Shown here in pieces: positions 7,632 through 26,619 of a stretch of 64,000 bases of DNA. Below the pieces are notes generated by a model, which worked only from the letters and a program-made list of their open reading frames with translations, was not told the DNA's origin and searched no databases. The translations under genes and the position numbers were made by a program. How positions within the stretch are numbered: the stretch's first letter is position 1; each line of letters begins with the position of its first letter. Source of the stretch: Synechococcales cyanobacterium bin59.metabat.ball.084 (lineage in GTDB: Bacteria; Cyanobacteriota; Cyanobacteriia; Cyanobacteriales; Chamaesiphonaceae); assembly GCA_013297675.1 (NCBI GenBank), contig JAAFHZ010000005.1:1-64000 (forward strand). Direction: 5' to 3'.

Positions 7632-8852
7632 ATGCGTATCAAACAGCTCAGGCTCAAAAATTTTCGTGGCATCAAGAATCTAGAACTGAACTTTGACACC
7701 ACACAACCGGTCGCTGTATTAGTGGGAGCTAATGGAGTCGGAAAATCTAGTATCTTGGATTGCATTAATGATTTAGTTAGAAGTGGTGAGTTGATTGCTA
7801 CTAACAAGCCTCTTGAATCAATTTTTCCAGATCGAGATATTCATATTGGTGAAAACTCAACATGCAATAGTATTCTGGCTGTAATTGATGATGCTGAAAT
7901 TAATTGGGAAATTGAAAAGGTCAGGAAAGAAGCAGTTAGTTTTAACAAACCAATTAATCACATGCAATTAATAAACAATAGTCCTAACCAATATCAATTA
8001 GGTTCATTCGTTTCAGTTTACTATACAGCAGATCGTCGAGCAATTCAAATGCAAAGTGAGTCTAATGTTTTACCTGTGGTTATGTACTCAAATACTGTGA
8101 TGATCAATTTTCAAGATTTTAGTGGCTGGTTTCATTCTTTAGAAAACCTTGAGAATGAAACAAGATTATTGAGTAATATAGACTATCGTGATATCAGATT
8201 AGAATCAGCTAGACAAGCAGTCTATTCTATGTTGGGAGAAGGATTCAGTCGTTTACTAATGAGAAGGGAAAATAATCGGATGACTATTCAAAAAAATAGT
8301 CAAGAAATTGAACTGAGTTGGTTATCTGATGGAGAGAAAAGTTTGTTAGCACTTGCTAGTGATTTATCTCGGCGCTTAGCCATGGCTTATCCAGATTCTG
8401 TGAACCCATTACATGAGGCAGGCTTAGTTCTAATTGATGAAATTGAGCTGCATCTATATCCAGCGTGGCAACAGATGATTATTCAACGATTGACTCAGAC
8501 TTTTCCGGGTTGTCAATTTATTGTCACGACCCATTCACCACAAGTTCTCAGTAATGCTCAGCCCGAATGTATTCACATACTAAAGGTCGAAGATGGTAAC
8601 GTAGTCGTCAAACGCCCAGAGCGCTCCTATGGTCGAGATATTAACCGCATTCTCGAAGACATTATGGGAGTTATCAAGCGTCCACCAGAGATCGAAAACA
8701 GAATTTTAGAGCTATTTCGGATCATTCATGATGGAGAACTCGATCGAGCCAAAGATCTCATCCAAGAATTAGCCACCGAAATAGGCATCGACGAACCAGA
8801 ACTAATCCGCGCAGCTAGCACCATCCACCGCCGGGAGGTGATCGGTCGGTGA
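7632..8852 (+). CDS. ptuA: AAA/OLD-like ATPase, PtuA-type subunit of a Septu-like defence pair
   Basis: This 406-residue ABC-type ATPase belongs to the RecF/OLD-like class. It begins MRIKQLRLKNFRGI with Walker A GANGVGKSS near residue 32. The ABC signature region ELSWLSDGEKSLLALASDL is followed by Walker B LVLIDEIELHLYP and the switch TTHSPQVL. There is no TOPRIM nuclease domain after the ATPase, which separates it from true OLD nucleases. The C-terminus is a helical tail. Its stop overlaps the GTG start of an HNH-nuclease gene by four bases (GTGA). In Septu systems an ATPase (PtuA) and an HNH nuclease (PtuB) form a complex that degrades DNA during phage infection. The role here is inferred from this pairing. 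The gene reads visibly more AT-rich than the helicase upstream. Confidence 0.75.
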   Translation: MRIKQLRLKNFRGIKNLELNFDTTQPVAVLVGANGVGKSSILDCINDLVRSGELIATNKPLESIFPDRDIHIGENSTCNSILAVIDDAEINWEIEKVRKEAVSFNKPINHMQLINNSPNQYQLGSFVSVYYTADRRAIQMQSESNVLPVVMYSNTVMINFQDFSGWFHSLENLENETRLLSNIDYRDIRLESARQAVYSMLGEGFSRLLMRRENNRMTIQKNSQEIELSWLSDGEKSLLALASDLSRRLAMAYPDSVNPLHEAGLVLIDEIELHLYPAWQQMIIQRLTQTFPGCQFIVTTHSPQVLSNAQPECIHILKVEDGNVVVKRPERSYGRDINRILEDIMGVIKRPPEIENRILELFRIIHDGELDRAKDLIQELATEIGIDEPELIRAASTIHRREVIGR

Positions 8853-9505
8853 GATACATTCATAAAAAAACAGAACCGCCTGCTATTTTGCAGAAAGTTG
8901 CCACGCCAACTCCCCAGAATCCACAGCCAACTTACAGGAAACTGCGCAGCGTAAAAAAAAGAGAAATCCGTAAAATTCTTTCTGAAGAACAGGGATTTAT
9001 TTGTTGCTACTGTGGTCAGAGACTATCGCTCGAAGATTCTCATATTGAACATTTACAGCCTCAATCGGCTGCTGCACATCTTAGTCTGAGCTACGACAAT
9101 CTTTTGGTATCTTGCCAAGCCGAACTTCAGGCAGGCGATCCCCTTCATTGTGGGAAAGCAAAGAATGATTGGTTTGACCAAGAATTGTTAGTCTCTCCTT
9201 TGCAAACAAATTGTGAGCATTTCTTCGAGTACAGTCTGGCTGGTGAGATTTTACCAACCAAAGATGCGAATAGAAGTCGAGCTGCCCAAGAAACGATCGA
9301 TCGGCTGCGATTGAATATCCCCAAGCTGCAAGCTATGCGCCAAGCCGAGATCACGCCCTTGTTTGAGCTAGAATTATCCACCGAGGAAGTACTGAAACTA
9401 ATTGAAAGCTTTGCTACCACTGATGACCAAGGCTACTATCAGCCTTTTGGTTCGGCTTTAATTCATCTGTTGAAGCTGGAGTATTCGATCGACTCTAGTA
9501 AGTAA
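8849..9505 (+). CDS. ptuB: HNH endonuclease, PtuB/TIGR02646-like partner of the ATPase
   Basis: This 218-residue protein has a zinc-bound HNH core: CCYCG near residue 51, then SHIEHLQPQS with the catalytic His pair, YDNLLVSC, and LHCGKAKNDW. This spacing (CxxC, HxEH, N, C, HCGxxK) is typical of the TIGR02646/PtuB family. The N-terminal region contains RKLRSVKKREIRKIL, a basic segment that may contact DNA. The start is a GTG inside the stop of the ATPase gene, so translation is probably coupled. The C-terminal helical part (from about residue 140) would hold the ATPase contact. The function as the nuclease of a Septu-like system is inferred from family and operon. Confidence 0.75.
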   Translation: MRYIHKKTEPPAILQKVATPTPQNPQPTYRKLRSVKKREIRKILSEEQGFICCYCGQRLSLEDSHIEHLQPQSAAAHLSLSYDNLLVSCQAELQAGDPLHCGKAKNDWFDQELLVSPLQTNCEHFFEYSLAGEILPTKDANRSRAAQETIDRLRLNIPKLQAMRQAEITPLFELELSTEEVLKLIESFATTDDQGYYQPFGSALIHLLKLEYSIDSSK

Positions 9506-10658: not shown

Positions 10659-13600
10659 ATGCCCAAAGCTTACCTATTCGTCAATGAGTCCACCCGTTTA
10701 GCAGGCTCTCCACAAAAAAGTCAGGGCAACTCGGGTCGAAAAATCGCTTTGGGATTTGGAATATTATTTCTGGTCATGACCGGAATCACTGTTCACTCAC
10801 TGTATGAAACAATAAAAATAGAACAAACGCTTCCACAAAATCCCTCCCCAATTCTGAAAATTGATCAAGAAGCATATTCTAATAATAGGAGCGCTGAACT
10901 GATTCGTCAGACCAGAGCCTCTCTACAGCTTTCTATATTATTAATATTAGCTAAAATCTGTATTGGTGTTTTGTTCTTTGGGCTGGCACTTTATATTATT
11001 TGGTGTGAGTTGGCTCAACGAAAAGTTAACGAAAGGCTTCAGTCTCAAGAGCGAGATTTTATGGCGGCTGTTTTGGATACATCTGATGCACTAGTTCTTG
11101 TTCTTGATCAACAGGGGAAAATCATACACTTTAATCGGTGCTGTGAAAGAGTTAGTGGCTATAATTTTACAGAAGTTCAGAATACTGCTATTTGGGAGAA
11201 GTTAGTCTGTCCCGAAGAAGCAGATTCGATAAAAAAACTATTGTCGGAAATATTGCACGAACAAAAATCTTCTTATCATCATGAACACTACTGGCTAACT
11301 AATACTGGCGAACGGCGTTTAATCTCTTGGCTCAATACAGTATTACTGTCACCAAATGAATTAGTAAAGTATATTGTAGCTACTGGTATAGATATTACCG
11401 AAACCCGTCAAACGGAAATAGACCTAGAAAAACAGAAACAGTATTACAAATCGATTATTGATAATGCTCGTGAAGTCATATATCAAACTGACTTTGATGG
11501 AATTTTGACTTTTCTAAGCCCCTCATGGGAGATTGTAACAGGTTTTAAAATTTCGGACAGCTTAGGGAAAAATTTGCTAGATTTTGTCCAGCCCAGTAAA
11601 GATCAGTATGAATTAAATGATAAAGATAACAGTGCGACACATCTTCAGATAGAAAATCGGAATTACCAAATTATGCGATATTTCACCAAAAAAGGAGATT
11701 TTCGCTGGATGGAAGTTACTAGTCACAAAATTATTAGTGCTGATAACAAAGTTACTGGTACTTCTGGACTATTAAATGATGTTACCGATCAAAAAAGAAT
11801 AGATAGATACCGTACTGCTCAATATGCTGTAACTCACATATTGTCAGAAGCAGATACATTAGCAAATGCCGCTGCTGGAGTGTTGCGATCGCTGTGCAAA
11901 ATTTTAGAATGGGATGTAGGGCATTTATGGTCTGTAGATATAGAAGCAGATAAACTGCAATTCTTGGCTGCTTGGCACCAACCAACTGTGCAAGTGGAAA
12001 AAATGAATGCAGTTGCTAAATCCTTAGATGTTTATGCTGGAAAGAGCTTAGCTGGCAAAATATGGCAGCAGAGCAAGCCAATTTGGGTTAAAGGGCTAGA
12101 AATTGACTCTAATTGTTTATTGGCAAAGGCTGCTAGTGAAGCTGGCTTGACGCAAGCTATGGGGTTTCCAATTTTAAATGATCAGCAAGTATTAGGGGTC
12201 GTGACTATTTTTAACAGAGCGGTACAAATACCTGATGACAACTTGGTACATTTATTGACAGCGATTGGGTTTCAGCTCAATCAGTTTATCGAACGCAAAA
12301 AAATTGAGCTAGAGATTCAACGACACAATTCTCATAATCAACTTCTAACTGCAATCACATTGCGAATACGCCAATCTCTAGACTTAGAAGCTATTCTCAA
12401 CACCACAGTTGCCGAAGTGCGAAAATTCTTGGAAGTTGACCGAGTAGTGATCTACCAGTTTCATTCTGATTGGTCTGGCTCAGTGGTAGTTGAATCTGTG
12501 CTGCCCCAGTGGACTGCCACTTTAGGTGAAAATATTCAAGACACTTGTTTAATGGAAGGACAGTGGAAAAAGTACCAAAAAGGCAGTATTCAAGTCATTG
12601 ATGATATAGAGTCAGGTGATTTGACAGATTGCCACAAAGATTTATTGCGTAGGTATCAGGTTAAAGCTAATTTGATAGTGCCACTGTTGCAAAATGACCA
12701 GTTATGGGGTTTGCTCATTGCTCATCATTGTGCTGCACCCCGTCGTTGGCAAGCATTTGAACTTGACTTATTATATCCGCTGGCTGATCAAGTGGGAATC
12801 GCTTTAGCCCAATCTGATCTACTAACTCAAACTACAAAGCAAAGTTATAAATTAACCCAACAAAATCGTGCTCTTGATCAGTCTCGTAAAGCAGCAGAGA
12901 TGGCTAGGAAAGAAGCGGAGAAAGCGGCATCTTTAAAGACTGCTTTTTTGGCTACTATGAGTCACGAAATTAGGACACCCATGAATGCTGTCATTGGGAT
13001 GACTGGACTGTTGTTAGAAACTAAACTAAATGCTCAACAACAAGATTTTGTAGAAACAGTTCGTAGTAGTGGTGATGCCTTACTCACTTTAATTAACGAA
13101 ATATTAGATTTCTCTAAATTAGAAGCTGGAGAAGTTGAAATAGAAGTATTAGATTTTGATTTAGTTAGTTGTACCGAAGATGTGGTTGGAATGCTTGCTC
13201 CAGCAGCTAATACTAAAGGTTTGGAGATTGCAGTACTGAGACCGCCCAATGTGCCTACTCGCTTACGGGGAGACGTTACTAGGTTGCGGCAAATTTTAAT
13301 CAATTTAGTGGGTAATGGCATTAAATTTACAAGTGTAGGTGAAGTGGTTATTCGCATTTCACTAATGTCTGAAACTGATTCCACAGTAGATATTTTGTTT
13401 TCAATTGACGATACCGGTATCGGGATTCCGACAGCCGCTCAGGAAAAATTATTTACTCCCTTTGTACAGGTGGATGCCTCTACCACCCGCAAATACGGCG
13501 GCACTGGTTTGGGTTTATCGATCTGTAAGCAATTAGTTGAATTGATGGGAGGACAGATTGGGGTTGATAGTACTGCTGGTAAGGGTTCACAATTTTGGTT

Positions 13601-14969
13601 CACAATTACTTTTGATAAACAACTTCAGCCTGCCAACAGTTCACTCCAACAAGATTTACGGGTGGATTTAGATGGTGTTAGGTTATTGGTAGTAGATGAC
13701 AACGAAACCAATCGCCAGATTGTGCGCTATCAAACAGCGAATTGGGGTGTGGTTGTTGATGAAGCAGCTTCTGGCGAAGAAGCATTGATTCTTTTGCGTC
13801 AAGCAATCGCAGAAGGTACTCCTTACAAAATTGCTATTCTAGATATGCAAATGCCTGTTGTGGATGGGGAGATGCTTGGTAATCAGATTAAATCCGATCC
13901 AATTTTGGCAGAAACAATTTTAGTTATGCTTACATCATTGGCCAGAACCAGAACTCAGCAACAGATTCGCCAGATGGGCTTTGCAGCCTATTTAACTAAG
14001 CCAGTTAAACAATCACGGTTACTAGATTGCTTAATGGAAGTAATTAATTGGGATAGTTCAACTTGGGATGGCCTAGATACTTTTGCCCTGTCTACATCAC
14101 CTACAGACAGCACCTTCGGATCTTTAAGTGACCAACTAGGCCAGATTAAAATTTTGTTGACTGAGGACAGTGCTGCTAATCAAAAAGTAGCTTTGTATCA
14201 ATTAAAGAATCTAAACTATGAAGCTGACATGGCAGCTAATGGTCAAGAGGCGCTGGATTTGATGCTTCAAATAGATTATGACCTAATTTTGATGGATTGT
14301 CAGATGCCAGTTATGGATGGTTATATGGCTACTCGTGCTATTCGCCAGTCTAAAAGCATCAAAAAACAACCGGTAATAATTGCCATGACTGCCAATGCTA
14401 TGGCTGAGGATCGCCAGCGCTGTTTTGATGCTGGAATGGATGATTACTTGAGCAAGCCAGTACGCAAAGAAGATTTAGCTGAAAAACTTTCCCATTGGCA
14501 CAGAATACTGATGGCGGCTTCTGGCTCTGTACCAACAGATATTACAGATGGAATAATAGGGGTAGATGCTACCAAGGAAAATCTGATGGTGATTTCTGTT
14601 TCCACAGATTTATTGCCAAATGAGTCTGTATCAGATGAATTAGTTGATGAAGAGTATTTACAACAGTTATTTGGTAATGACGAGTCCAGCAAACTAGAAG
14701 TCATCCAAATTTTGCTTGATACATTACCAGAACGCTTGCAGAACTTACGTAGTGCTATTACTGCCGGAGACTGTCATAAAGTAGAACGAGAGGCTCATTA
14801 CATTAAAGGCTCAAGTGCAGGAGTAGGTGTGATTGGTTTATCGCAGCCAGCCGATCGAATTGAGCAAACTGCTCGTAGTCAAGAGTTAGTTGGGGTAGAA
14901 GAAAATCTTTGGGAGGCGGAGCAAAAATTTCATCAGCTTCAAGTTTGGCTCCAATCTAGACTGAATTAG
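10659..14969 (+). CDS. Giant hybrid histidine kinase with PAS, CBCR-like GAF, two receivers and HPt
   Basis: This is a 1436-residue membrane-attached phosphorelay protein. In order: a transmembrane helix near 28-48 and another near 92-113; PAS-PAC near 132-250 and 262-375; GAF1 near 390-545; GAF2 near 565-720; a coiled coil; HisKA with ATMSHEIRTPMNAVIGM (His769); HATPase with N-box NLVGNGIKFT, DTGIGI and GGTGLGLSI; receiver 1 (Asp1062 in LDMQMPVVDG); receiver 2 (Asp1213 in MDCQMPVMDG); and HPt with EAHYIKGSSAG (His1380). GAF2 contains TDCHKDLL, where Cys658-His659 match the bilin-attachment Cys-His of cyanobacteriochromes, and it shares the flanking YQ.G....IDDI and VKANLIVPL patterns. A complete His-Asp-His-Asp relay is present. 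It lies next to partner-switching genes, so it may feed the receiver-phosphatase at 15553. The target and signal are inferred. Confidence 0.88.
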   Translation: MPKAYLFVNESTRLAGSPQKSQGNSGRKIALGFGILFLVMTGITVHSLYETIKIEQTLPQNPSPILKIDQEAYSNNRSAELIRQTRASLQLSILLILAKICIGVLFFGLALYIIWCELAQRKVNERLQSQERDFMAAVLDTSDALVLVLDQQGKIIHFNRCCERVSGYNFTEVQNTAIWEKLVCPEEADSIKKLLSEILHEQKSSYHHEHYWLTNTGERRLISWLNTVLLSPNELVKYIVATGIDITETRQTEIDLEKQKQYYKSIIDNAREVIYQTDFDGILTFLSPSWEIVTGFKISDSLGKNLLDFVQPSKDQYELNDKDNSATHLQIENRNYQIMRYFTKKGDFRWMEVTSHKIISADNKVTGTSGLLNDVTDQKRIDRYRTAQYAVTHILSEADTLANAAAGVLRSLCKILEWDVGHLWSVDIEADKLQFLAAWHQPTVQVEKMNAVAKSLDVYAGKSLAGKIWQQSKPIWVKGLEIDSNCLLAKAASEAGLTQAMGFPILNDQQVLGVVTIFNRAVQIPDDNLVHLLTAIGFQLNQFIERKKIELEIQRHNSHNQLLTAITLRIRQSLDLEAILNTTVAEVRKFLEVDRVVIYQFHSDWSGSVVVESVLPQWTATLGENIQDTCLMEGQWKKYQKGSIQVIDDIESGDLTDCHKDLLRRYQVKANLIVPLLQNDQLWGLLIAHHCAAPRRWQAFELDLLYPLADQVGIALAQSDLLTQTTKQSYKLTQQNRALDQSRKAAEMARKEAEKAASLKTAFLATMSHEIRTPMNAVIGMTGLLLETKLNAQQQDFVETVRSSGDALLTLINEILDFSKLEAGEVEIEVLDFDLVSCTEDVVGMLAPAANTKGLEIAVLRPPNVPTRLRGDVTRLRQILINLVGNGIKFTSVGEVVIRISLMSETDSTVDILFSIDDTGIGIPTAAQEKLFTPFVQVDASTTRKYGGTGLGLSICKQLVELMGGQIGVDSTAGKGSQFWFTITFDKQLQPANSSLQQDLRVDLDGVRLLVVDDNETNRQIVRYQTANWGVVVDEAASGEEALILLRQAIAEGTPYKIAILDMQMPVVDGEMLGNQIKSDPILAETILVMLTSLARTRTQQQIRQMGFAAYLTKPVKQSRLLDCLMEVINWDSSTWDGLDTFALSTSPTDSTFGSLSDQLGQIKILLTEDSAANQKVALYQLKNLNYEADMAANGQEALDLMLQIDYDLILMDCQMPVMDGYMATRAIRQSKSIKKQPVIIAMTANAMAEDRQRCFDAGMDDYLSKPVRKEDLAEKLSHWHRILMAASGSVPTDITDGIIGVDATKENLMVISVSTDLLPNESVSDELVDEEYLQQLFGNDESSKLEVIQILLDTLPERLQNLRSAITAGDCHKVEREAHYIKGSSAGVGVIGLSQPADRIEQTARSQELVGVEENLWEAEQKFHQLQVWLQSRLN

Positions 14970-14970
14970 G

Positions 14971-15393
14971 CTACATCGGGTCAAAATGCTTGACCAGCAA
15001 TAGACAGTTTTGCTGATCAGCCGATCGAGAATAACTGAAATCGTCGCAGAGACGTTGAATGAGGTATAAGCCACGCCCTCCAATTTGATTTTGGTCAATG
15101 ACATCTGCTGTAGTTGCTAGTTGCTGTGTTAAGTCAAAAGCTGGTCCATGATCCCAAATCCGAATTTCTAAGATACCTGTGAATACTGATACTTCAATTA
15201 AAATAGGAGTATTAGTATCTAGATCCCTGTGAGCATGACGAATGGTATTGGTCAAGCCCTCTGCCAAAGCTGTTTGACATTTGATCCAAATATTCTCTGG
15301 TATTGGTGCTGGATGGTTTGCATTAAACCAGGTGAGGACTGATGGCAAGACATTTAAGTCGGTTTTAACTTGTAGAGAAAATTGATTGTCCAC
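14971..15393 (-). CDS. RsbW/SpoIIAB-like anti-sigma serine kinase
   Basis: This is a 140-residue single-domain GHKL ATPase. The N-box reads EGLTNTIRHAH, the G1-like motif IWDHGPAFD and the G2-like motif GGRGLYLIQ. Proteins of this kind phosphorylate STAS antagonists and hold a sigma factor or another target. The gene converges on the kinase gene with only one base between the stop codons. A PP2C phosphatase and two STAS proteins follow within 2.2 kb, so a complete partner-switching set is present. In cyanobacteria comparable sets (IcfG in Synechocystis, HmpUVW in Nostoc) control carbon use or motility and polysaccharide. No sigma factor is encoded in the window. Confidence 0.85.
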   Translation of the reverse strand: MDNQFSLQVKTDLNVLPSVLTWFNANHPAPIPENIWIKCQTALAEGLTNTIRHAHRDLDTNTPILIEVSVFTGILEIRIWDHGPAFDLTQQLATTADVIDQNQIGGRGLYLIQRLCDDFSYSRSADQQNCLLLVKHFDPM

Positions 15394-15552
15394 GTTGTTT
15401 AAGTAATTAATTATGTACTAGTGATGCGATTTTAGCCCAGAACCTTCCAGAATTTATACCATATTGACTTAAATAGGTCTATTTTAGCTAAATTATGGGT
15501 AGTCTCCTCTTCTACGGGGTAAACTTGGGTAAAGATTCCTTGAGTAAATGAC

Positions 15553-16707
15553 ATGGCTCCCATTCTTATTATTGACGACGATCCCGTAATTCAGATTGTT
15601 TTAAAGCGGACACTTCAAGAGCAAAATTATGAAGTAATCACTGCTCGTAGTGGTGAAGAGGGAGTAATGATGGCAAAGAGTATTTGCCCCTCTTTAATTA
15701 TTTGTGATTGGTTAATGGATGGCATGGATGGTTTGGAGGTCTGTCGGCAGATTAAGGCTACTACAGAATTATCGACAACTTTTTTTATATTACTGACCTC
15801 CCGCTCCGAAATCAAAGATAGAGTAGAAGGTTTGGATGCTGGAGCAGATGACTTTTTGACTAAGCCGATCGATGTTGCAGAGTTAAAAGCTAGGGTGAGA
15901 GCTGGATTACGCTTATATCAATCGGCTGAAGATATGAAAAAATTGGCTGCTGATTTGCAAACCCAAAAGCAGCAAATGGAAGCAGAATTACTAGAAGCAG
16001 CAGAATATGTGCGATCTCTACTACCCATGCCCATAATAGGTGAGATTAGCATCGACAGCCAGTTTCTACCATCTCGTCAGTTGGGTGGAGATTGTTTCGA
16101 CTATTTTTGGTTAGATCCTGATCACCTAGTAGTTTACTTATTAGATGTGTCTGGGCATGGCTTAGGTGCTGCATTACCCTCAGCGATCATTCAAAATGCA
16201 CTACGTTCTCAATCTTTACCAGATCTCGATTTTCATCGACCAACTAGTGTTTTACGAGTTTTGAATGAAGCCTTTCAAATGAATGAGCGTAACTCTCGTT
16301 ATTTCACAATGTGGTACGGGGTCTATCATCGTCAGACAAAAATTTTGACTTATGCCAGTGCTGGACATCCAGCAGCACTACTAATCACTAATGAAGAAAC
16401 TCTACCTGTAAAACCTTTAAAAACACGCGGCTCTCCAATTGGGGTGTTTGCTGAATCAATTTTTACTGAAGATACTTATCTTGTTCAAACTGGTAGTACC
16501 TTATATATCTTTAGTGATGGTATTTATGAATTTACTACAGCCAGCGGTCAAATGGGAGATATGCAAGGATTTATCACAAATATTGCTATCTTGAATAGAT
16601 CTGCTAATATTAATGTTAAAGAAATATTGGATTCTATCTGTAAAACCAGTGCATCGGGGCATTTTGATGATGATTGTTCACTAGTAAGAATTAAATTTAG
16701 TACTTAG
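15553..16707 (+). CDS. Receiver domain fused to PP2C-type (RsbU/SpoIIE) serine phosphatase
   Basis: This 384-residue protein begins with a receiver domain (acidic pair Asp8/Asp9, phosphoacceptor Asp52 in ICDWLMDGMDG, Lys in FLTKPID). A coiled-coil linker (about 125-155) leads to a PPM phosphatase domain. The metal-binding residues are visible in GGDCFDYFWLD, LLDVSGHGLGAALPS, IFSDGIYEF and HFDDDCSLV, so the enzyme should be active. By family knowledge, phosphorylation of the receiver changes phosphatase activity toward phospho-STAS partners. The neighbouring giant kinase with its HPt domain is the obvious candidate donor, and the two STAS genes downstream are the candidate substrates. It is transcribed rightward and converges on the STAS genes. 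Confidence 0.9.
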   Translation: MAPILIIDDDPVIQIVLKRTLQEQNYEVITARSGEEGVMMAKSICPSLIICDWLMDGMDGLEVCRQIKATTELSTTFFILLTSRSEIKDRVEGLDAGADDFLTKPIDVAELKARVRAGLRLYQSAEDMKKLAADLQTQKQQMEAELLEAAEYVRSLLPMPIIGEISIDSQFLPSRQLGGDCFDYFWLDPDHLVVYLLDVSGHGLGAALPSAIIQNALRSQSLPDLDFHRPTSVLRVLNEAFQMNERNSRYFTMWYGVYHRQTKILTYASAGHPAALLITNEETLPVKPLKTRGSPIGVFAESIFTEDTYLVQTGSTLYIFSDGIYEFTTASGQMGDMQGFITNIAILNRSANINVKEILDSICKTSASGHFDDDCSLVRIKFST

Positions 16708-16727
16708 TAAATAATACAAATACTGTA

Positions 16728-16770
16728 AAAGCTGCAAGATATACATTTATAACATTTATCTTGCGGCTTT
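16728..16770. terminator. Bidirectional terminator between the phosphatase and STAS genes
   Basis: A 14-bp stem with one G-U type position (16728-16741 with 16757-16770) sits between convergent genes. It has an A-run on the left arm and T's on the right arm. Confidence 0.7.
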
Positions 16771-16802
16771 CTGTAGATAGAGTTTGATTCAACAATCAGT
16801 CA

Positions 16803-17129
16803 TTAATTCAAAGTAAAAATACTCTGATTAAAATCTTCAATGCTATCATAAACCTTGAAAACGTTGTCCATAGCTGTCAATTCTAGTAAAAGCTTGACTT
16901 GACCGTTAATCTTGCTAAGAGCTAAGTTTCCTCCACTAGCACGTACATTTTTTAAGGTCATGATTAAGCAACTCAAACCAGAGCTATCCATGAACTCAAC
17001 TTCTTGGCAATCAACTAAAATGTTGACTTGCTTAGATTCTAGCAAATCTCCAACATCTCGACGCAGTTGATTGCCACAAATGCTGTCTAAAATACCTAGA
17101 GGTTTTACTACTTTAATATCTGAACTCAT
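16803..17129 (-). CDS. STAS-domain anti-sigma factor antagonist (copy 1)
   Basis: This 108-residue STAS protein carries the phosphorylation loop VEFMDSSGLSCLIMTLK, in which the two serines match those of SpoIIAA. The rest of the fold (LVDCQEVEF strand, ASGGNLAL, VKLLLELTAMDNVFKVYDS) is complete. It should be phosphorylated by an RsbW-like kinase and dephosphorylated by a PP2C phosphatase, both encoded within 2 kb. It lies 92 bases downstream of a second STAS gene on the same strand. That gene in turn follows the GT2 polysaccharide synthase, so all three could share a transcript. Confidence 0.9.
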   Translation of the reverse strand: MSSDIKVVKPLGILDSICGNQLRRDVGDLLESKQVNILVDCQEVEFMDSSGLSCLIMTLKNVRASGGNLALSKINGQVKLLLELTAMDNVFKVYDSIEDFNQSIFTLN

Positions 17130-17220
17130 TTTATCACCTGAAATATGTAATTATTGATTGGTTATCATTGGGTTTTCTCTAAATCAAGATTTTTTAGATC
17201 CAGAGAGTTTTATCTGTTAA

Positions 17221-17574
17221 TCATAAGTTCTCCAAATAAAATATGGACTCGTTTTTCCAGTTGGTTGTTTTAATGACTACTAGGCTTTCGGCTTTCATTT
17301 TAAATGAATCCTCTAAAGCAGCAACTTCCAAAAGAAGTCGAATTTGACTATTAGTATTGGTGAGCGCAAGGCTACCACCGGCTGTACGAACTTTTTTCAA
17401 GGACATAATGAGACAGCTTAAACCCATACTATCCATAAACTCAATACCTGCACAGTCAATTAAAATACTTGTCTGCTTTGCTTGTATAGAATTGCTAATT
17501 ATTTCATGAAGCTTGTTGGCACAAGTTGCATTTAGGATGCCAACTGGTTGTAGTACTTTTACATCAGAACTCAC
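17221..17574 (-). CDS. STAS-domain anti-sigma factor antagonist (copy 2, variant phospho-loop)
   Basis: This 117-residue paralogue of the neighbouring STAS protein has near-identical surroundings (LIDCAGIEFMD, LSCLIMSLKKVRTAGGSLAL, LLLEVAALEDSFKM). Its loop reads DSMGL instead of DSSGL, so the second serine is replaced by methionine. The C-terminus is about ten residues longer and different (KTTNWKNESIFYLENL). If the missing serine is the phosphoacceptor, this copy would act as a constitutive binder. If the first serine is used, it would still be switchable. The gene starts 119 bases after the stop of the GT2 synthase gene, on the same strand. Confidence 0.88.
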   Translation of the reverse strand: MSSDVKVLQPVGILNATCANKLHEIISNSIQAKQTSILIDCAGIEFMDSMGLSCLIMSLKKVRTAGGSLALTNTNSQIRLLLEVAALEDSFKMKAESLVVIKTTNWKNESIFYLENL

Positions 17575-17692: not shown

Positions 17693-19702
17693 TTACTTAG
17701 TTGATTTAGGTTGCCACATAGCTGCACCAATTACAGACCAGAGCAATGATAGGTTATAAATTGACCAGCCAGCATTAATTAGATAAACCAACGGATCACT
17801 TAGTTGACCAAGGATGAATAATCCTAAACTCCAAGACATTCCCAAAATAGTAAAACCAAAAATAATTATTTGAGGCTTGATTAAATTAAAGTATATGCCG
17901 GACTGGCGCTCTTTAGGAGTGACTTTAAAATGAATTGAGCGCTTGCTGATCACACTCCATACCGCCTGGATAAACAACGGGAACAAAGAGAGAGCATATT
18001 GCTCCGACCGCCATAACTCTCGGGCAGGAATCCCCCAACCAATAATCAAAAACGTCACTCTGTTAAAAATGAAGGCAGGCAGAAAATGCCGTACAAAGTC
18101 ATTTCCATAGGCTGTTACTGGCACAGTGCCAGTAAAAAAGAAGACGATCGGACAAATTAAAAAAACTGCCATTGCAAAGCCAGAAAAGTAGCTATACATG
18201 GTCTGAAAATATTGAAGTCGCTGCCAAAAAGACAATCCTGGTTTAGTTAATGGATTTTCTTGGGTCATTACCTGAATAGTTCCTTGTGCCCAACGTAAGC
18301 GCTGCTGTAAGGTTGAACTGAGGTCGTCTGGGGCAAGACCGATCGCCAGTAGCTCATTATGATAAATGGATTGCCAACCTGCGGCATGTAAACGCATCGC
18401 CGTATTCATGTCCTCAGTAATACTGCTACTGGAAACCCCACCTATTAAGTCAAATTCCTCCAGACTTGTCTCGTCTTGGGCATAGGCTTGGGCAAAGTAT
18501 TTCAAACCAGTATTGACGATCGCCTCTCGCCGCAATACTGCATTGGTTCCAGTATAAAATGCCGAATTCAAGCCATCTTTACCCTGTTGAATTGGGCCAT
18601 AAAATAGATGGGCTTGATGTCCATAGGGATCACCTGGTGGCAGGTTAGAAAAGTCTTGAGGGGTCTGCACCAGGGCAATCCGATTACTTTCGTACTTACC
18701 ATTCCAAGAATTGTAAGTCACAAAATAAGGCAAGACATGTTTTAAAAACTGTGGTTTGGGAATGTGATCGGCATCTAAAGTTATGATGAATTTACCAGTA
18801 GTTTCACCAGCGAAGATTGCATAGTTAATATTGCCTGCCTTGGCATGGTGCGGCTTTCCGGCTGGTTTAGGTCTAGCAATATAGCGACAGCGAGCCAATC
18901 CACTTAGTTCTGTCTGTTTTTGCAGAATAGCTTGTTTTAGTCGCTCTTGTTCAGCTTGCACCTGAGCTTGCACAGTGGCATGTTTTTGCTCTTTCAGTAG
19001 CAGTAGCTGGTGAAAATTTTGCAAAAACCGGGTACCCAAAGATTCTGTTTGGTTGTGGGCAATGGCTGTGGCTAAGAACTTTTCAGCAGCATGTGTATCA
19101 GGGATGAGGAGTTGCAGCGTCTCTAGACGATCGATTAGTTCTTGCAGTTCTGTTTGGATTTGTTTAGCAGCAGCTCGTAACAGTGGGGACTGCATATCTT
19201 CCAGACAGAGCCGTTGAGCCATCTCGCGCATCTGTGGCGAGTTTCCATCATCCAGAATATAGACAATGAGCTTAGTAACTGGGTAATCGATCGCCAGAGC
19301 AGCCCGAGCGGTAGTCTCGACCATTGTGGCCGATTCATTATAGCAAGTGATAAAACCGTCCACGGTTGGCCAGTCAGAAACAGGCAGAGCTGGAGACATT
19401 TGCTCTAACGGCTTAGTTTCTCGTTCGATCGGTCGCCACATGCCCAAGGTGAACAAGACTCCACCAATGTAGCTGTAGATTTCTGCTAGCAGCAAAGGTA
19501 CTGCTAACCATAAAGCGTCATAATTAAGAGAATGACAGACTCGCCACTGCAAATACCAAAAACCCAATAGCAGGTTAATTTCAGCAAAGTAGCGAAACAG
19601 CATTGTGCGTCGTCTTAAAAATGATCGTGAATTCCCGGGGAAAACAGACAACTTTTTATTTGATGTATAAAGGCTAGGTGGTTTAGAGGTTAAAATCGTC
19701 AT
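17693..19702 (-). CDS. Membrane GT2 glycosyltransferase, cellulose-synthase-like, without PilZ
   Basis: This 669-residue processive beta-glycan synthase has transmembrane helices near 38-80 at the N-terminus and several after residue 490. All GT2 synthase motifs are present: the first Asp in YILDDGN, DADH (Asp310, Asp312), TED (Asp431) and QQRLRWAQG (Trp471). It therefore resembles BcsA/CesA. Two things differ from bacterial BcsA. There is no C-terminal PilZ domain, so no visible c-di-GMP site. About 105 residues are inserted between the first Asp motif and the KAGNINYAI segment; the insert is rich in Leu, Gln, Glu and Ala and is probably coiled coil. The gene lies 18 bases after a four-domain DUF3131 gene. 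UDP-glucose is the likely donor because a CugP-type pyrophosphorylase is encoded in the same locus. The product (cellulose or another beta-glucan) is not proven. Confidence 0.88.
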   Translation of the reverse strand: MTILTSKPPSLYTSNKKLSVFPGNSRSFLRRRTMLFRYFAEINLLLGFWYLQWRVCHSLNYDALWLAVPLLLAEIYSYIGGVLFTLGMWRPIERETKPLEQMSPALPVSDWPTVDGFITCYNESATMVETTARAALAIDYPVTKLIVYILDDGNSPQMREMAQRLCLEDMQSPLLRAAAKQIQTELQELIDRLETLQLLIPDTHAAEKFLATAIAHNQTESLGTRFLQNFHQLLLLKEQKHATVQAQVQAEQERLKQAILQKQTELSGLARCRYIARPKPAGKPHHAKAGNINYAIFAGETTGKFIITLDADHIPKPQFLKHVLPYFVTYNSWNGKYESNRIALVQTPQDFSNLPPGDPYGHQAHLFYGPIQQGKDGLNSAFYTGTNAVLRREAIVNTGLKYFAQAYAQDETSLEEFDLIGGVSSSSITEDMNTAMRLHAAGWQSIYHNELLAIGLAPDDLSSTLQQRLRWAQGTIQVMTQENPLTKPGLSFWQRLQYFQTMYSYFSGFAMAVFLICPIVFFFTGTVPVTAYGNDFVRHFLPAFIFNRVTFLIIGWGIPARELWRSEQYALSLFPLFIQAVWSVISKRSIHFKVTPKERQSGIYFNLIKPQIIIFGFTILGMSWSLGLFILGQLSDPLVYLINAGWSIYNLSLLWSVIGAAMWQPKSTK

Positions 19703-19720: not shown

Positions 19721-22700
19721 TTAATCGATTAAAGGGGTATTTCCTTTTGCTGCATATAAGAGACTTTCTAAAATGACGGCATTAGTATTTGCATCCATAA
19801 CTGTGTTATTCCCCAATTTGGACTTTTCATAACGCCCAGCATAGAATCCCCGTTCAGGAACTGCTAAATCTTGGATGGCTGACCTTAATTTGTTAGCGTA
19901 GTTATTGTCTGGCAGCAAAGCTGACCAGCCAAAAGCTGCTTTGGTGCTAATGAAATGCAGATCTGGATAGGCTTTTCCACTAGGGGTAATCGCCGTCCAT
20001 TCTTGGCCATTGGCGTAGACACTATAGTACAAAAAGTAAGGTGGCCGGTTAATCGAGTCTTCGTTGACAGCGGTTAGTATGCCAGTGCGCTTAAATCGCT
20101 TTTCTTGGACATCCAACAGGGCTTGGACTTGGGGTTTAACGTGCTCCGGCCACCCCATCTCCAAGCCCCAAAGCAGATAGGGTTCGTTAGTTAGGTAATT
20201 GCCCGCTCCAGAGTTTTTTTGATCCCGCTGATCAACTTCCAACGAGACACCTTCAATTTTTACTCGTCGGATGGGGGTTTTGTGGAGAGCATTAAAAGCT
20301 TCTATCCCCCAAAGCTTTAATCCTTGAGCAGCATATTGCTCATAGCCTAAACGCCCTTCTTGGGTAGGATGAGGTTTACCTTTGGAGAAAATTACCCCGG
20401 CTAACCATTCTTCCTTCACTAGGCTTTTTGTTTCCCAGCGGGCCACAATTTTTTGAACGAGATCGCGGTACTCCGGATGATGTTTTTTAATAATGTGCAA
20501 AGCAGTCATTAAACGAGCTGTATCCAAAGCTGATGTGCCACTTTGACCTTGAGGGTCTGGGCTATTATTCAACTTGCGCATTTCTGCTGTTTGGGTACTA
20601 TATGCCTTGTTTGGAAGTTTGGTGGATGGTAATGGTACTTTAGCTAAAGTATCTAAGATGGTGCCCATCCAAGACTTAAATTGCTCTGGCGACAAAATCC
20701 CCAATTGTCGAGCAGAATGTATTGCCATCAATACGCTGCCTTGATCCCATAGAGTTGTCCAGGGGTAGTCACTAACAGCGCTTACTAAACCAGTTTGAGC
20801 ATTGCGGTTACGCACAAAGTATTGCCAAGCTGTGTGGGCTATTTGTCGATCTTCTGCACTTATAAATGGTGAATCAGAGCTTTTAGTCAACGGCGGACTT
20901 GGTTGAGTTATCGGTGTAGCAACAGGTGTTGGTACTACTGCTTGGATAATCGGTGTAGCAACAGGCGTTGGTGTTACTGCTTGGACAATTGGCGTAGCAA
21001 TAGGTGCTGGTGTTATTGCTTGGACAATCGACGTAGCAACAGGCGTTGGTGTTGCTACCTGAGTACTTGGAATTGTTAGTGGTGCGATCGGCGCAGTGGC
21101 AATATCATTAGCTGCGGTCCAATAAGAGCCAGCTTGGTCTGCTATAAACTTCACGGTGGGTTGAGCGATGCGGGGTAAACCTTTGCCCGAATCTCCCACT
21201 CGCACGGCTTGCCACCAAGCTGAATCAAGGGTTGTTTGAGGGCGTACCAAAGGCTGCTGCCCAGTCACTTTATACAAAAGAGATTCTAAAATCAAAGCAT
21301 TGGTAGTACCACTAGAAGACAATGTAGGCTTACCAGTTTTTTCATAGAAACCTTCATAGAAGCCAGTAAATCTGCTGTAAATATCTAGAACAGTTTCTCG
21401 GAGTTCTTTGGCATAGGCATTACTGGGAAAAAGTGCCGACCAACCAAAAGCGGTAGCCGTACTGACAATCCGGGAATCGGGGAGACTTTGACCCGTATCG
21501 CTGAGAGTTGCCCAAGCTTCACCCTTGCCTACTAAAGTACTATGTACAACATAAGGTGCATCTTCGATCAACATGGTGGCCGAAGCAGTTAAAAGATTAG
21601 TGCGCTGATAGCGATTGGCCTCAGCCTTCAGCATTGGTGTTACCAATGATCGCATTTTGGGATCAAAACCATATTCCAAACCATAGAGCAGAAAAGGTGT
21701 ACTCACGGTATAAGGTAATGCTTTCTCTTTAATTTCTGGACGATTGCGCTGAGTAGGAATCGCTTCACCTTCTACATCCACTGTGGTGTAAGTGCCACCT
21801 ACCGCAGCCTGATGCATATCGAAGCCCCATAGTTGGAAAGCTCTGGCCGCATATTCTTCATAACCTAAACGGGTTTCTGGTTCAATTCGAGGCACCATGC
21901 GCCCACGGGTATCTCTGATCATATTGGCTTTGTTCAGCAAGCCATTATTGGCTATGCGCAAATAAGACCAATCCAAGGCTATTTTGTCGATCGCCTCGGT
22001 ATAGCCGGGATAACAGTTTTTGATGGTGTGTAAAGCCGTCATCATTCGGCCAATATCTAGCCCAGACCAGCCAGTGCCATCGGGTGTGGGGTTATTACCA
22101 TAATCTACGGGTTGGAGAGACCAGGTATTATAACCTCGATGAGGTAGTTCATTCATCGCTAAGGGTAATTGAGCGACTGTGCCCAACAGGTTGCGCACGC
22201 GGACATCAAAATCCTTGTTATCAATCACACCAAGAGTGCGAGCGCTGTGTAAAGCCATCAGGTAATTGCCTAGACCCCATAAAGTAGCTCCTTTAATATT
22301 AGTGCGATCATTAGCTAACCCAGAGGTTTCAGTATTGGCCGAAAAGTACGACCAAGCGGCCTGGGCATAACGTTTATCAATCACTCCCAGGGGTTTAGCC
22401 AGAGCTGGGCAACTAGATGGTGTTGGCTCCCGATAAGGGGAATTCTCACGGGGGGAGTTGTTGACTGGGGACTCGATCGGAGCAATTGGAGTAGCTATTA
22501 TGACAGGTAAATTATTACCGATAGGCGCAATATATTTATTGACTAGGGGCTGATTGCCTAAAGCCTTGAAGTGTAAAATTTCTAGAATTAACCCATTAGT
22601 ATTGGCGGTTAGACTTTTGTTGGGTTGTTTAGTCTTTTCATATTGTCCGGCAAAGAAACCATCATTTTTGGGGCTACGTAGATCTTTGACCACATCAAAC

Positions 22701-25270
22701 ACTTGTTTAGCATAGGTATTCGTGGGAAACAAATAACGCCAGCCAAAGGCCGCCTTGGTGCTGATAGTCCGCAAGTTGTCATAAGGCTCATTCTTTTCAT
22801 TGATCGCTGCCCAAGCGACCCCATTGGAGTAAACGGTGTTGTAGATGAAATAAGGTGCTTCATCAATATTATCTTCGGTGACAGCGGTTAGTTGGCCAGT
22901 CGATCGATAGCGTCTCTCTTGAACTTGTAATAATCTGGCTGCGTAGTCTGCTATTTCACCTTTGAGACCAAACTCAATCCCATCTAAAATGTATGATTCA
23001 CTCACCACATAATTATTAGCATTGGTTGTTTGATAATCACGCACATCTACCGGGATTTTTACTCCATAGATATCTACGAATTTCAACGGTTGTAAAGAGG
23101 CTGCTTTGGGAGCTTTAAAACCCCATAGCTCATAGCCCCGAGCGGCGTATTCTTCATAACCCAAGCGCCCTTCTTGCACTAATAATGTTTTTTTGTCAGG
23201 CAAAACTGTTGCACCATAAAGCATTCCGTCTTGGATGCTACGAGCAACCTGCCATCTGTCTACAATGCCCTTCAGCCAAGGTGTATACTGGGGCTGGCAA
23301 GAGCGAATAACATGAAAAGCTGCGAGCATTCTGCCTAGATCTAATGCCGACCAGCCAATCCCTTTTTCGACAGGATTATTACCATAATCCACCATTTGAC
23401 CATTGCCAGCGTGATAAACCTTGTTTGGCAAAGAATCTTCAAACAGTTGTACTTTACCGAAAGTGGTCAAAAATTTATTGAGTTTTTCGTCAAATTCTTT
23501 TTGCTCGATTAAATTTAGCGATCGCGCCGAATTTAAAGCCATCAGATAATTGCCCATATCCCATAGGGAACCTGAAGGATAACCGCCAGCCGAATTCATA
23601 AAACCAGTTTTTTGCTGGTAGTTTTTGACAAAATATTGCCAAGCATCTTCAGCATAAATTTGCTCTTCCGCAGTGAGCGGCGCAATAATCCGGGTACAAG
23701 CATTGGCACTATCAGGCTGGGCTGCTGTTGGTTGGCGACGCAACGTGGGGACAAAGACTGGTTTCGGCGGTGTATTTGGAGGCGGTGGCGGTGGAGCTGC
23801 CTCTGCATTTAGACGGGGCGGAGCAACTTCAGGTTTGGGTTTTGGAGGTGGAGCAATCGCTGGCTTTTTCGGTATTTTTTTAGCTGCTGGACGCTTTTGG
23901 CCGAGTTTTTGCTTAACTAATGGCTGATTACCAATTGCTTTGTAATACAAAATTTCGAGAATTAAACCATTGGTGTTCCCCGTCAAACTTTTATTAGGCT
24001 GTTTAGTTACTTCATATTGTCCTGCCATAAAACCATCACCATTGGGGCTTTTTAGCTCTTTAACTGCTTCAAATACCTTGTGCGTGTAAGGATTTTCGGG
24101 GTAGAGATAACGCCAGCCAAAAGCGGCTTTGGTGCTGATAGTCCGCAAGTTGTCATAAGGTTCATTTTTCTCATTGATCGTTGCCCAAGCGACTCCATTA
24201 GAGTAAATGGTATTGTACAAAAAGTAGGGTGATTTATCAATATTATCTTCAGTAACAGCAGTTAACTGACCAGTTTTTTTGTAACGTAACTCCTGAATTT
24301 TTAATACCTTTTTCGCGTAGTCAGCTAGTTTTTCATCCAAGCCAAATTCAATACCATCTAAAATGAAAGATTCACTTACTACATAATTATTAGCGTTGGT
24401 AGATTGATAGTCTCGTTCATCAACTGGAATCTTGATCCCATAGATCTCTACTTCTTTAGATGGTTGCCAGGATGCAGCTCTAGGAGCTTTGAAATCCCAT
24501 AGCTCGTAACCTCGGGCAGCATATTCTTCGTAGCCTAAGCGCCCTTCTTGCACCAGCAGCGTTTTTTTGTCAGGAAGGACAGTCGCACCATAAAGCATCC
24601 CATCTTTGATTGATCTAGCAATTTGCCAGCGAGCCAGAGTGCCTTTAATCCAGTCATTATATTGAGGATGGCAGACTCGGACTACATGTAAAGCTGCTAA
24701 TATCCGGCCAATATCCAACGCTGACCAGCCAATGCCTTTTTCAACTGGGTTGTTACCGTAATCCACCATCTGTCCGGTGGCAGCGTGATAAACTTTATTG
24801 GGTAATGAGTTCTCAAATAATTCTAATTTCCCCACACTAGTCAAAAACTTGTTTAACTTCTCATCAAATTCTTTCTGCTCAATCAAGTTCAACCATCGTG
24901 CCGAATTTAAGGCCATTAAATAGTTGCCAATATCCCATAAAGAGCCAGATGGATAGCCCCCTGCCGAATTAGTAAAACCAGTTTTAGGTTGATAATTCCT
25001 GGCAAAGTAAGCCCAAGCTAACCGCGCCTGAGCCTCTTCTTCAGGAGTTAGAGGATTAGTAATATTATCACAAGGGGTCTGAGGAGCTGGCTCAGCTAGA
25101 CCCATTTGGGGCATCATTGCAGGCAGCCAGAGCTGAACCCAAGCCCCAATTAAAAATAACGCTGTATAACGCACCCAACGAGGATAATCGTTTCTAATTC
25201 CTCGTTCGATGTGATATCTCCACCAATATTGTAGAATCCTCCGAATTTTAAACACTACTCTTGTGCCCAT
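19721..25270 (-). CDS. Membrane-anchored protein with four tandem DUF3131 domains
   Basis: The protein has 1849 residues. A basic N-terminus and one transmembrane helix (about 34-55) are followed by four DUF3131 units near 66-465, 530-915, 960-1345 and 1465-1849. They are joined by proline-rich linkers: PPPKPKPEVAPP near 485-520, and four copies of a TPTPVATPI-type 13-mer near 1403-1457. Units share WD.G.YLMAL.SAR, GW.ALD.GR, GRLGYEEYAARG, a Tyr/Phe-I-L-DG-I-E-F-G strand, TAVTEDNID..PYF, and STKAAFGW. Units 1 and 2 are nearly identical. Unit 3 lacks the TEDN acidic pair. The fold is probably an all-helical toroid, like many glycan hydrolases or lyases, and DUF3131 proteins are often found beside GT2 glycan synthases. 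The start overlaps the upstream DUF3131 gene by 16 bases. The catalytic reaction is unknown. Confidence 0.88.
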   Translation of the reverse strand: MGTRVVFKIRRILQYWWRYHIERGIRNDYPRWVRYTALFLIGAWVQLWLPAMMPQMGLAEPAPQTPCDNITNPLTPEEEAQARLAWAYFARNYQPKTGFTNSAGGYPSGSLWDIGNYLMALNSARWLNLIEQKEFDEKLNKFLTSVGKLELFENSLPNKVYHAATGQMVDYGNNPVEKGIGWSALDIGRILAALHVVRVCHPQYNDWIKGTLARWQIARSIKDGMLYGATVLPDKKTLLVQEGRLGYEEYAARGYELWDFKAPRAASWQPSKEVEIYGIKIPVDERDYQSTNANNYVVSESFILDGIEFGLDEKLADYAKKVLKIQELRYKKTGQLTAVTEDNIDKSPYFLYNTIYSNGVAWATINEKNEPYDNLRTISTKAAFGWRYLYPENPYTHKVFEAVKELKSPNGDGFMAGQYEVTKQPNKSLTGNTNGLILEILYYKAIGNQPLVKQKLGQKRPAAKKIPKKPAIAPPPKPKPEVAPPRLNAEAAPPPPPPNTPPKPVFVPTLRRQPTAAQPDSANACTRIIAPLTAEEQIYAEDAWQYFVKNYQQKTGFMNSAGGYPSGSLWDMGNYLMALNSARSLNLIEQKEFDEKLNKFLTTFGKVQLFEDSLPNKVYHAGNGQMVDYGNNPVEKGIGWSALDLGRMLAAFHVIRSCQPQYTPWLKGIVDRWQVARSIQDGMLYGATVLPDKKTLLVQEGRLGYEEYAARGYELWGFKAPKAASLQPLKFVDIYGVKIPVDVRDYQTTNANNYVVSESYILDGIEFGLKGEIADYAARLLQVQERRYRSTGQLTAVTEDNIDEAPYFIYNTVYSNGVAWAAINEKNEPYDNLRTISTKAAFGWRYLFPTNTYAKQVFDVVKDLRSPKNDGFFAGQYEKTKQPNKSLTANTNGLILEILHFKALGNQPLVNKYIAPIGNNLPVIIATPIAPIESPVNNSPRENSPYREPTPSSCPALAKPLGVIDKRYAQAAWSYFSANTETSGLANDRTNIKGATLWGLGNYLMALHSARTLGVIDNKDFDVRVRNLLGTVAQLPLAMNELPHRGYNTWSLQPVDYGNNPTPDGTGWSGLDIGRMMTALHTIKNCYPGYTEAIDKIALDWSYLRIANNGLLNKANMIRDTRGRMVPRIEPETRLGYEEYAARAFQLWGFDMHQAAVGGTYTTVDVEGEAIPTQRNRPEIKEKALPYTVSTPFLLYGLEYGFDPKMRSLVTPMLKAEANRYQRTNLLTASATMLIEDAPYVVHSTLVGKGEAWATLSDTGQSLPDSRIVSTATAFGWSALFPSNAYAKELRETVLDIYSRFTGFYEGFYEKTGKPTLSSSGTTNALILESLLYKVTGQQPLVRPQTTLDSAWWQAVRVGDSGKGLPRIAQPTVKFIADQAGSYWTAANDIATAPIAPLTIPSTQVATPTPVATSIVQAITPAPIATPIVQAVTPTPVATPIIQAVVPTPVATPITQPSPPLTKSSDSPFISAEDRQIAHTAWQYFVRNRNAQTGLVSAVSDYPWTTLWDQGSVLMAIHSARQLGILSPEQFKSWMGTILDTLAKVPLPSTKLPNKAYSTQTAEMRKLNNSPDPQGQSGTSALDTARLMTALHIIKKHHPEYRDLVQKIVARWETKSLVKEEWLAGVIFSKGKPHPTQEGRLGYEQYAAQGLKLWGIEAFNALHKTPIRRVKIEGVSLEVDQRDQKNSGAGNYLTNEPYLLWGLEMGWPEHVKPQVQALLDVQEKRFKRTGILTAVNEDSINRPPYFLYYSVYANGQEWTAITPSGKAYPDLHFISTKAAFGWSALLPDNNYANKLRSAIQDLAVPERGFYAGRYEKSKLGNNTVMDANTNAVILESLLYAAKGNTPLID
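20910..21060. repeat. 39-bp tandem repeat encoding a Pro/Thr/Ala/Val linker
   Basis: Four copies of a 39-base unit begin at 20910, 20949, 20988 and 21027. They encode the 13-residue linker unit between the third and fourth DUF3131 domains. Copies differ at a few positions, several of them synonymous, so selection seems to act on the protein. Confidence 0.9.
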
Positions 25271-26619
25271 AGTAATAGTGGTTTACCCACTTTTTTATAG
25301 AGAAGACTTTCTAGGATTACACCATTATTATTGGCTGTAAGCGCTTTGTTTGGTTTGTTAGATGACTCATAAAACCCGTTGTACCAACCCGCATCTGCTT
25401 TAAGATTAGACTCGGTAAAAATAGATAATTTGTGGGTGTAGGGTGTGTTGTATAACACATGCCAACCGATCGCTGCTTTAGCACTCAGAAAGCGTAAATC
25501 ATTGTGTTGTGAGCTTTTGTCAGTAACAGTGTTCCAAGGTTTTCCATTTGCAAATAAGGTGTTATAAACAAAATAAGGTGCTTGGTCAAGATTATCTTCA
25601 GTAACAGCAGTTAAATAACTGGTAGCTTCGTAACGAGCTTCTTGGGCGGCCAACAGTCGATCAGCATAAGCTTTGGGCAAAGATTTAAAACCTGTTTCAA
25701 TGCCATCTAAAATATATGGCTCACTCAACACATAATTATTAGCACCAGAAGTCTTGAAATCACGATTATCATAAGGTACTCCTTGGCCATAGAGATCTAC
25801 AAACTTCACATGAGATTTTACATCTAGCGCCTTGTTAACGTTTAATCCCCAGAGCTGAAGGCCATAAGCTGCATAGCTTTCATAACCAAGTCTCCCCTCT
25901 TGATTGTAAGCTTCTTGACCCTGCTTAGTACTCGTACCAAACATTTGACCATTTTTAACCAAACGCTTCATTTGCCATTTCTGCCAAATTGCGGCGGTTT
26001 GTTCTTGATATTCAGGATAGCGATCGCCGATAATTTTCAACCAAATAGCCATCCGCCCCAAATCGATCGCTGACCAACCAATTTCTTCTTTTTGATCAAG
26101 TTTGCCATAACCTACTGGCAGCAATGTTTTGGCGTTATAGACTTTATTGGGCAACTCATTGCGATAGAGTGGTAAGGTAAGTAAGGTTTGCAAAGTACGA
26201 GTCATTTTGCTTCCAAATTCTTCCTTAGTCACAATGCCTAACTCATAAGCACTAACCAAAGCTGCCATTCCGGCTGCTTGATCCCACATAGTTACAGAAG
26301 CAAAATTATCGGCGGAGTTGACTAGGCCAGTTTTATTATTCCAGTTGCGGCCAAAATACGTCCACGCCTGTTTGGCAAACGCTAACTCTGCTGGAGTAAT
26401 ATGACCAGTATGATCTCCAACTTTAGAAACTTTTGCTAGCTGGCCTGATTCAACTGGTTTACCATTAAAATTTATAGACTGAGCATCAAGCTTAGCAATT
26501 TTCTCAGATAATGGCTGTAACATTTCTAAACCAAAAATCAAAGAAAAAGCGGTCACGATACCACCGACACTTGCTAGAATCGTCCAAAATTTGCGGGGCG
26601 GCTCAAAATCGGTGTTCAT
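25255..26619 (-). CDS. Membrane-anchored single DUF3131 protein
   Basis: The protein has 454 residues with one N-terminal transmembrane segment (about 11-32) and a single DUF3131 domain from about residue 75 to the end. Conserved segments match the four-domain neighbour: MWDQAAGMAALVSAYELG, IGWSAIDLGRMAIWL, EGRLGYESYAAYG, EPYILDGIETGF, TAVTEDNLDQAPYFVYN, LSAKAAIGW. It is the first gene of a leftward operon; the next start codon overlaps its end by 16 bases and the GT2 synthase follows. It would act on the periplasmic side on the growing glycan, but no reaction is established. It is the closest relative in the window of the DUF3131 gene at 36408. Confidence 0.87.
   Translation of the reverse strand: MNTDFEPPRKFWTILASVGGIVTAFSLIFGLEMLQPLSEKIAKLDAQSINFNGKPVESGQLAKVSKVGDHTGHITPAELAFAKQAWTYFGRNWNNKTGLVNSADNFASVTMWDQAAGMAALVSAYELGIVTKEEFGSKMTRTLQTLLTLPLYRNELPNKVYNAKTLLPVGYGKLDQKEEIGWSAIDLGRMAIWLKIIGDRYPEYQEQTAAIWQKWQMKRLVKNGQMFGTSTKQGQEAYNQEGRLGYESYAAYGLQLWGLNVNKALDVKSHVKFVDLYGQGVPYDNRDFKTSGANNYVLSEPYILDGIETGFKSLPKAYADRLLAAQEARYEATSYLTAVTEDNLDQAPYFVYNTLFANGKPWNTVTDKSSQHNDLRFLSAKAAIGWHVLYNTPYTHKLSIFTESNLKADAGWYNGFYESSNKPNKALTANNNGVILESLLYKKVGKPLLLWAQE

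Follow-up and report, generated by a model that had tools for sequence, protein, structure and literature searches.

A cellulose-synthase-like GT2 enzyme as a candidate direct client of a phosphorelay-fed partner switch in cyanobacteria

In the cyanobacterial DNA analysed here, a stretch of 64,000 nucleotides referred to as the window, it was found that the gene of a cellulose-synthase-like glycosyltransferase (GT2) lies beside a complete set of phosphorelay and partner-switch genes. In some relatives, an RsbW domain is fused inside the GT2 protein, which makes the synthase the likely client of such a set. Judging from the sequences, it is somewhat probable that the GT2 synthase is the direct client of a serine-phosphorylation partner switch fed by a multistep phosphorelay. 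The broader proposal is about evenly balanced: a partner switch may gate this GT2 family directly, with neither c-di-GMP nor a sigma factor involved, and in several lineages the kinase may have been built in, so that the polymerase would act both as the STAS kinase and as the receiver of the switch.

Genes of the phosphorelay and the partner switch

The first gene of the block (10659..14969, plus strand) encodes a membrane hybrid histidine kinase of 1436 amino acid residues. Its sequence begins with two hydrophobic helices, and its Pfam architecture is PAS-PAS-GAF-GAF-HisKA-HATPase-REC-REC-HPt. Motif reading placed all phosphorelay residues: His769 of the kinase, Asp1062 and Asp1213 of the receivers, and His1380 of the HPt domain. 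The receiver-PP2C phosphatase (15553..16707, plus strand; 384 residues) has a REC domain and a SpoIIE-type PP2C domain (PF07228, 5e-38) with the metal-site motifs GGD, DVSGHG, SDG, and DD. Its receiver Asp52, which the first-pass annotation had named as the target of the HPt domain, is present by motif reading. The parts of an HptB-type relay, a PF01627 HPt domain with its phospho-His site and a PF00072 REC-PP2C protein with its phospho-Asp site, are encoded by linked genes.

Between these two genes lies the gene of an RsbW-like serine kinase or anti-sigma-type ATPase (14971..15393, minus strand; 140 residues; HATPase_c_2 PF13581, 1e-21). The protein matches the solved RsbW structure 6m36 at 9e-9, and its ATP-binding N, G1, and G2 boxes read as intact (E45..N49, D81xG, and GGRG). 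It scores under the NCBIfam equivalog cut-offs for the anti-sigma factors of the RsbW/SigB and SpoIIAB/SigF types. Two STAS antagonist genes follow on the minus strand (16803..17129, PF01740 6e-16 and TIGR00377; 17221..17574, PF01740 3e-15). Their products, STAS1 and STAS2, share 47% identity, and both keep the D48-S49 motif with Ser49 as the phosphosite. As far as sequence can tell, all the parts of a partner switch of the SpoIIAA/AB and RsbUVW type are present: a GHKL kinase, a D-S STAS protein, and a PP2C phosphatase with metal-binding aspartates. The kinase and PP2C genes lie on one strand, and the STAS, RsbW, and GT2 genes on the opposite one. The first-pass annotation had assigned an HPt hybrid kinase, a receiver-PP2C, an RsbW-like kinase, and two STAS genes to this block; the open reading frames lie exactly where it had put them, and the Pfam domains agree.

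Partner switches classically free sigma factors. No sigma factor had been noticed nearby, and a profile search found no sigma-70 region 2 anywhere on the window's contig, while 13 matches exist elsewhere in the genome. An Rfam search of 9-27 kb of the window found nothing. At 7632-9505 of the window, PADLOC models (1e-113 and 1e-63) identified an AAA ATPase and HNH pair as an anti-phage system of the Septu type (PtuA/PtuB).

The GT2 synthase, its operon, and its insertion

The proposed client (17693..19702, minus strand) is a cellulose-synthase-like membrane glucan synthase. It is similar to Escherichia coli BcsA (7lby) at 8e-51, with a common GT2 core and common catalytic motifs, and its CelA equivalog score (318 bits) is below the cut-off of 699. 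BcsA carries a PilZ domain. Pfam found no PilZ domain in the window GT2, as had been claimed, and the cluster ORFs scanned gave no match to GGDEF or PilZ. The sole PilZ domain of the genome resides in the other cellulose synthase, a paralogue on C206. This confinement fits the idea that c-di-GMP control has been replaced in the window GT2.

The STAS genes had been described as lying just downstream of the GT2 gene on its strand. This is the case; 118 bases separate the GT2 stop codon from the STAS2 start. There is no terminator-like site within this gap, and its one promoter-like match (9/12) is no better than chance. Upstream of the GT2 gene on the same strand is a gene for an 1849-residue protein with four DUF3131 domains (19721..25270), which is found upstream of most GT2 orthologues, is almost always present where the GT2 is, and overlaps with a second DUF3131 gene (25255..26619, minus strand). 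A 533-residue protein encoded at 30792-32393 of the window has no Pfam or NCBIfam match; it recurs in GT2/DUF3131 loci and is also found in L194 and L195, beside kinase modules that have been relocated.

In the alignment with BcsA, residues 42-166 and 274-661 of the window GT2 match, whereas BcsA has only 2 residues in between. This alignment and the motif spacing define an insertion of about 107 residues (residues 167-273; 18884..19204, minus strand), which is absent from E. coli BcsA and from the paralogues; of the proteins compared, only those of this GT2 group have it. The DDG and HAKAG motifs are 132-150 residues apart in the unfused orthologues and 27-34 residues apart in the paralogues that could be measured. 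An AlphaFold model of the window GT2 built from two sequences (overall pLDDT 34) predicted helices at 173-198, 203-216, and 223-267 with a local pLDDT of about 44-64, which is only suggestive of a helical insertion.

Gene order and RsbW-GT2 fusions in related genomes

A GT2 orthologue was found in 54 of 391 genomes of the order and in 41 of 390 genomes sampled in the class. I read 61 unfused GT2 loci from 16 cyanobacterial families and 17 fused loci. A STAS gene lies downstream on the GT2 strand at 55 of the 61 unfused loci with gaps of 19-1203 bp, and in 39 of these cases it is within 400 bp of the GT2 gene. The window order, GT2>STAS><PP2C RsbW><HK-HPt, is repeated in most of the unfused loci read at length, and the linkage of the HPt kinase and the REC-PP2C recurs across most GT2 loci. 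In L242 and L244, GT2, STAS, and RsbW genes follow one another on a single strand. As exceptions, G328, G345, and G385 have an intact HK-RsbW-PP2C-STAS set elsewhere in the genome. Is this order a product of chance or of passive vertical inheritance, with no functional link? Neighbours can persist, and related genomes are not independent of each other. However, the order spans 16 families whose GT2 orthologues share 58-68% identity, none of 20 paralogous cellulose-synthase-like loci of the same order, used as a control, has STAS, RsbW, or PP2C nearby, and fusions exist. Such an explanation is very improbable.

Some loci have additional genes. In family f33, a PIG-L/LmbE de-N-acetylase gene lies between the GT2 and STAS genes at many loci (e.g. 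L159:10935-11648), hinting at an amino-sugar step. G030 (L049:9282-18005) has no GT2 orthologue and has kept a GT2-type kinase-PP2C-STAS set, after which come CHAT/TPR and TPS-secretion genes.

Each of the 17 fused loci, which come from 16 genomes and 7 families, encodes an RsbW-like ATPase domain within the GT2 insertion in a single open frame. Where both motifs match, DDG and HAKAG are 271-298 residues apart. Pfam found both PF13581 and cellulose-synthase domains in 7 of the 9 fused proteins tested; the other two are degenerate. Ten further genomes, outside the 17 loci, have matches of the fusion pattern in frames of 742-825 residues. The window RsbW shares 48% identity with the fused domain of L171, and the fused domains form one clade (support 100/99). 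A STAS gene lies 7-81 bp downstream at 9 of the 17 fused loci, while 5 loci have enough sequence and no nearby STAS. In STAS proteins of fused loci with readable motifs, Asn, not Asp, precedes the phosphosite. In family f14 (L176:7996-10374 and L178:7794-10172), the fused domain has no ATP motifs and there is no adjacent STAS gene, possibly reflecting decay toward a pseudokinase. A small ORF downstream of the L176 fused gene was considered as a STAS gene and rejected, its sequence being ferredoxin-like. An assembly artefact was also rejected as the source of the fusions, since the G195 and G096 loci lie on the main contigs of near-complete assemblies and the fusions occur in 7 families. No such RsbW-GT2 fusion, and no glycosyltransferase as a direct client or fused partner, was found in the open-access literature; an absence of this kind is weak evidence.

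The fusion of proteins that are otherwise encoded apart, side by side, is a classic (Rosetta-stone) sign of direct contact. I infer that RsbW and GT2 may touch each other in the unfused system of the window as well. On the other hand, the fusion may place the kinase at the docking site of STAS: unphosphorylated STAS would bind the GT2 insertion itself, and RsbW and PP2C would only set its phosphorylation. STAS is the most constant neighbour of GT2, and sister genus g2 fits this reading. There, GH2, GH9, and haem-NO-binding protein (HNOB) genes come after the GT2 gene, and then genes for a kinase, a receiver, and a STAS protein fused to a receiver; no close homologue of the window RsbW was found in the g2 genomes. 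This hints that, in g2, STAS itself may contact GT2. The HNOB, kinase, receiver, and receiver-STAS genes (L070:1730-5027) are perhaps a different input into the same synthase. In known precedents, STAS proteins act on HsbD and on BgrR, and SiaC, which is STAS-like, acts on SiaD (PMC5085249, PMC8457831); STAS output was proposed for HmpV and SypA (PMC8256260). However, the fusion partner of GT2 is RsbW, not STAS, and the g2 genomes do contain other HATPase_c_2 proteins. I regard this STAS-docking scheme as rather unlikely.

Of the 60 related genomes searched, most have a receiver-PP2C orthologue of nearly full length, and the GT2 orthologue is rarer. In relatives, the usual core set is RsbW< PP2C> STAS<; its neighbours are various housekeeping genes, and in most cases there is no kinase. 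Since such sets without GT2 occur in most relatives examined, the core module has at least one other client. In the trees, the window RsbW and PP2C group near the unlinked core copies and not within the GT2-linked clade. A single GT2-linked clade including the window was not rejected (AU p 0.425 for RsbW and 0.069 for PP2C); both trees suggest that the window genus recruited the module separately, which these values do not establish. The contig ends of G012 were dropped as one locus because the PP2C there is of the core type. From its place near the unlinked copies, and because the genome has one close RsbW copy of this type, the window RsbW might also serve a sigma factor. A fully conventional switch would go further: the RsbW-like protein would sequester one of the distant sigma factors, and its nearness to the glucan operon would reflect a shared regulon. 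The 13 sigma-70 matches, the Slr1861/Ssr1600/SigC precedent (PMC12329169), and the core modules of relatives, most of them unlinked to GT2, near which the window RsbW groups, are in line with it. It leaves the RsbW-in-GT2 fusions and the repeated STAS-GT2 adjacency unexplained, however, and I consider it still less likely than STAS docking.

A model of direct gating and related systems

If the synthase is the direct client, a signal would act on the membrane hybrid kinase, and phosphate would pass from His769 via Asp1062/Asp1213 to His1380 of the HPt domain and on to Asp52 of the receiver-PP2C. Phosphorylation of Asp52 would change PP2C activity, and the phosphorylation of STAS Ser49 would be set by PP2C and the RsbW-like kinase. 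Unphosphorylated STAS would bind the RsbW-like ATPase, which would sit at the predicted helical insertion of GT2 as the fused ATPase domain does in relatives. The docking and leaving of STAS would alter synthase activity with no need for c-di-GMP. By analogy with anti-sigma factors, the favoured sign of control is that RsbW would inhibit GT2 and unphosphorylated STAS would relieve the inhibition. It had been proposed at the outset that the module could control GT2 and replace c-di-GMP. The conserved gene order, the fusions, and the restriction of PilZ to the paralogue strengthen this idea considerably, although a sigma factor may still be a side target in the window lineage.

Known partner switches of similar logic act on diguanylate cyclases, such as HsbA-HsbD (PMC5085249) and SiaC-SiaD (PMC8457831). 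In Sinorhizobium meliloti BgrSTUWV-BgrR (Baena et al., as relayed in PMC8457831 and PMC7647112), BgrV acts on the cyclase BgrR, leading to mixed-linkage beta-glucan. As relayed there, a kinase/phosphatase pair sets STAS phosphorylation and the output is beta-glucan synthesis, as proposed here; in contrast to the Bgr route through BgrR and c-di-GMP, the window cluster has no cyclase, PilZ is absent from its GT2, and RsbW is found fused to GT2 in relatives. In Pseudomonas aeruginosa HptB-HsbR-HsbA-HsbD/FlgM (PMC5085249), a hybrid kinase/HPt pathway likewise leads to a receiver-phosphatase and STAS serine phosphorylation, but HsbR is a kinase and phosphatase in one protein, the HPt is separate, and the switch acts on FlgM and the cyclase HsbD. 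In P. aeruginosa SiaABCD (PMC8457831), a phosphatase and a kinase likewise control a small enzyme-binding activator, but this activator, SiaC, is a DUF1987 protein phosphorylated on Thr, and the enzyme is a cyclase. Moorella RsbT-like MtT (PMC7647112) is a switch kinase that binds its enzyme directly, but the enzyme, MtG, is a diguanylate cyclase in a stressosome setting.

Among cyanobacteria, Synechocystis Slr1861-Ssr1600-SigC (PMC12329169) also has an RsbW-like kinase and a STAS protein, but its client is SigC and ssr1600 is not adjacent to the kinase gene. The first-pass annotation had compared the module with IcfG and HmpUVW. This comparison is loose: Nostoc HmpUVW (PMC8256260, PMC10581220) has a PP2C, a STAS protein as the proposed output, and an RsbW, and is tied to polysaccharide and motility, but by locus tags hmpV is distant from hmpU and hmpW, and these two papers describe no linkage to an HPt kinase or GT2. 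The Pseudomonas HptB-HsbR-HsbA and Sinorhizobium Bgr systems are closer in logic.

If the model is true, there would be a second, c-di-GMP-independent gate for cellulose-synthase-like enzymes, with a membrane polysaccharide polymerase as the direct client of a partner switch. The natural RsbW-GT2 fusion would offer a single protein for testing direct gating. A GT2 client also suggests where the targets of the output-STAS proteins HmpV and SypA may lie.
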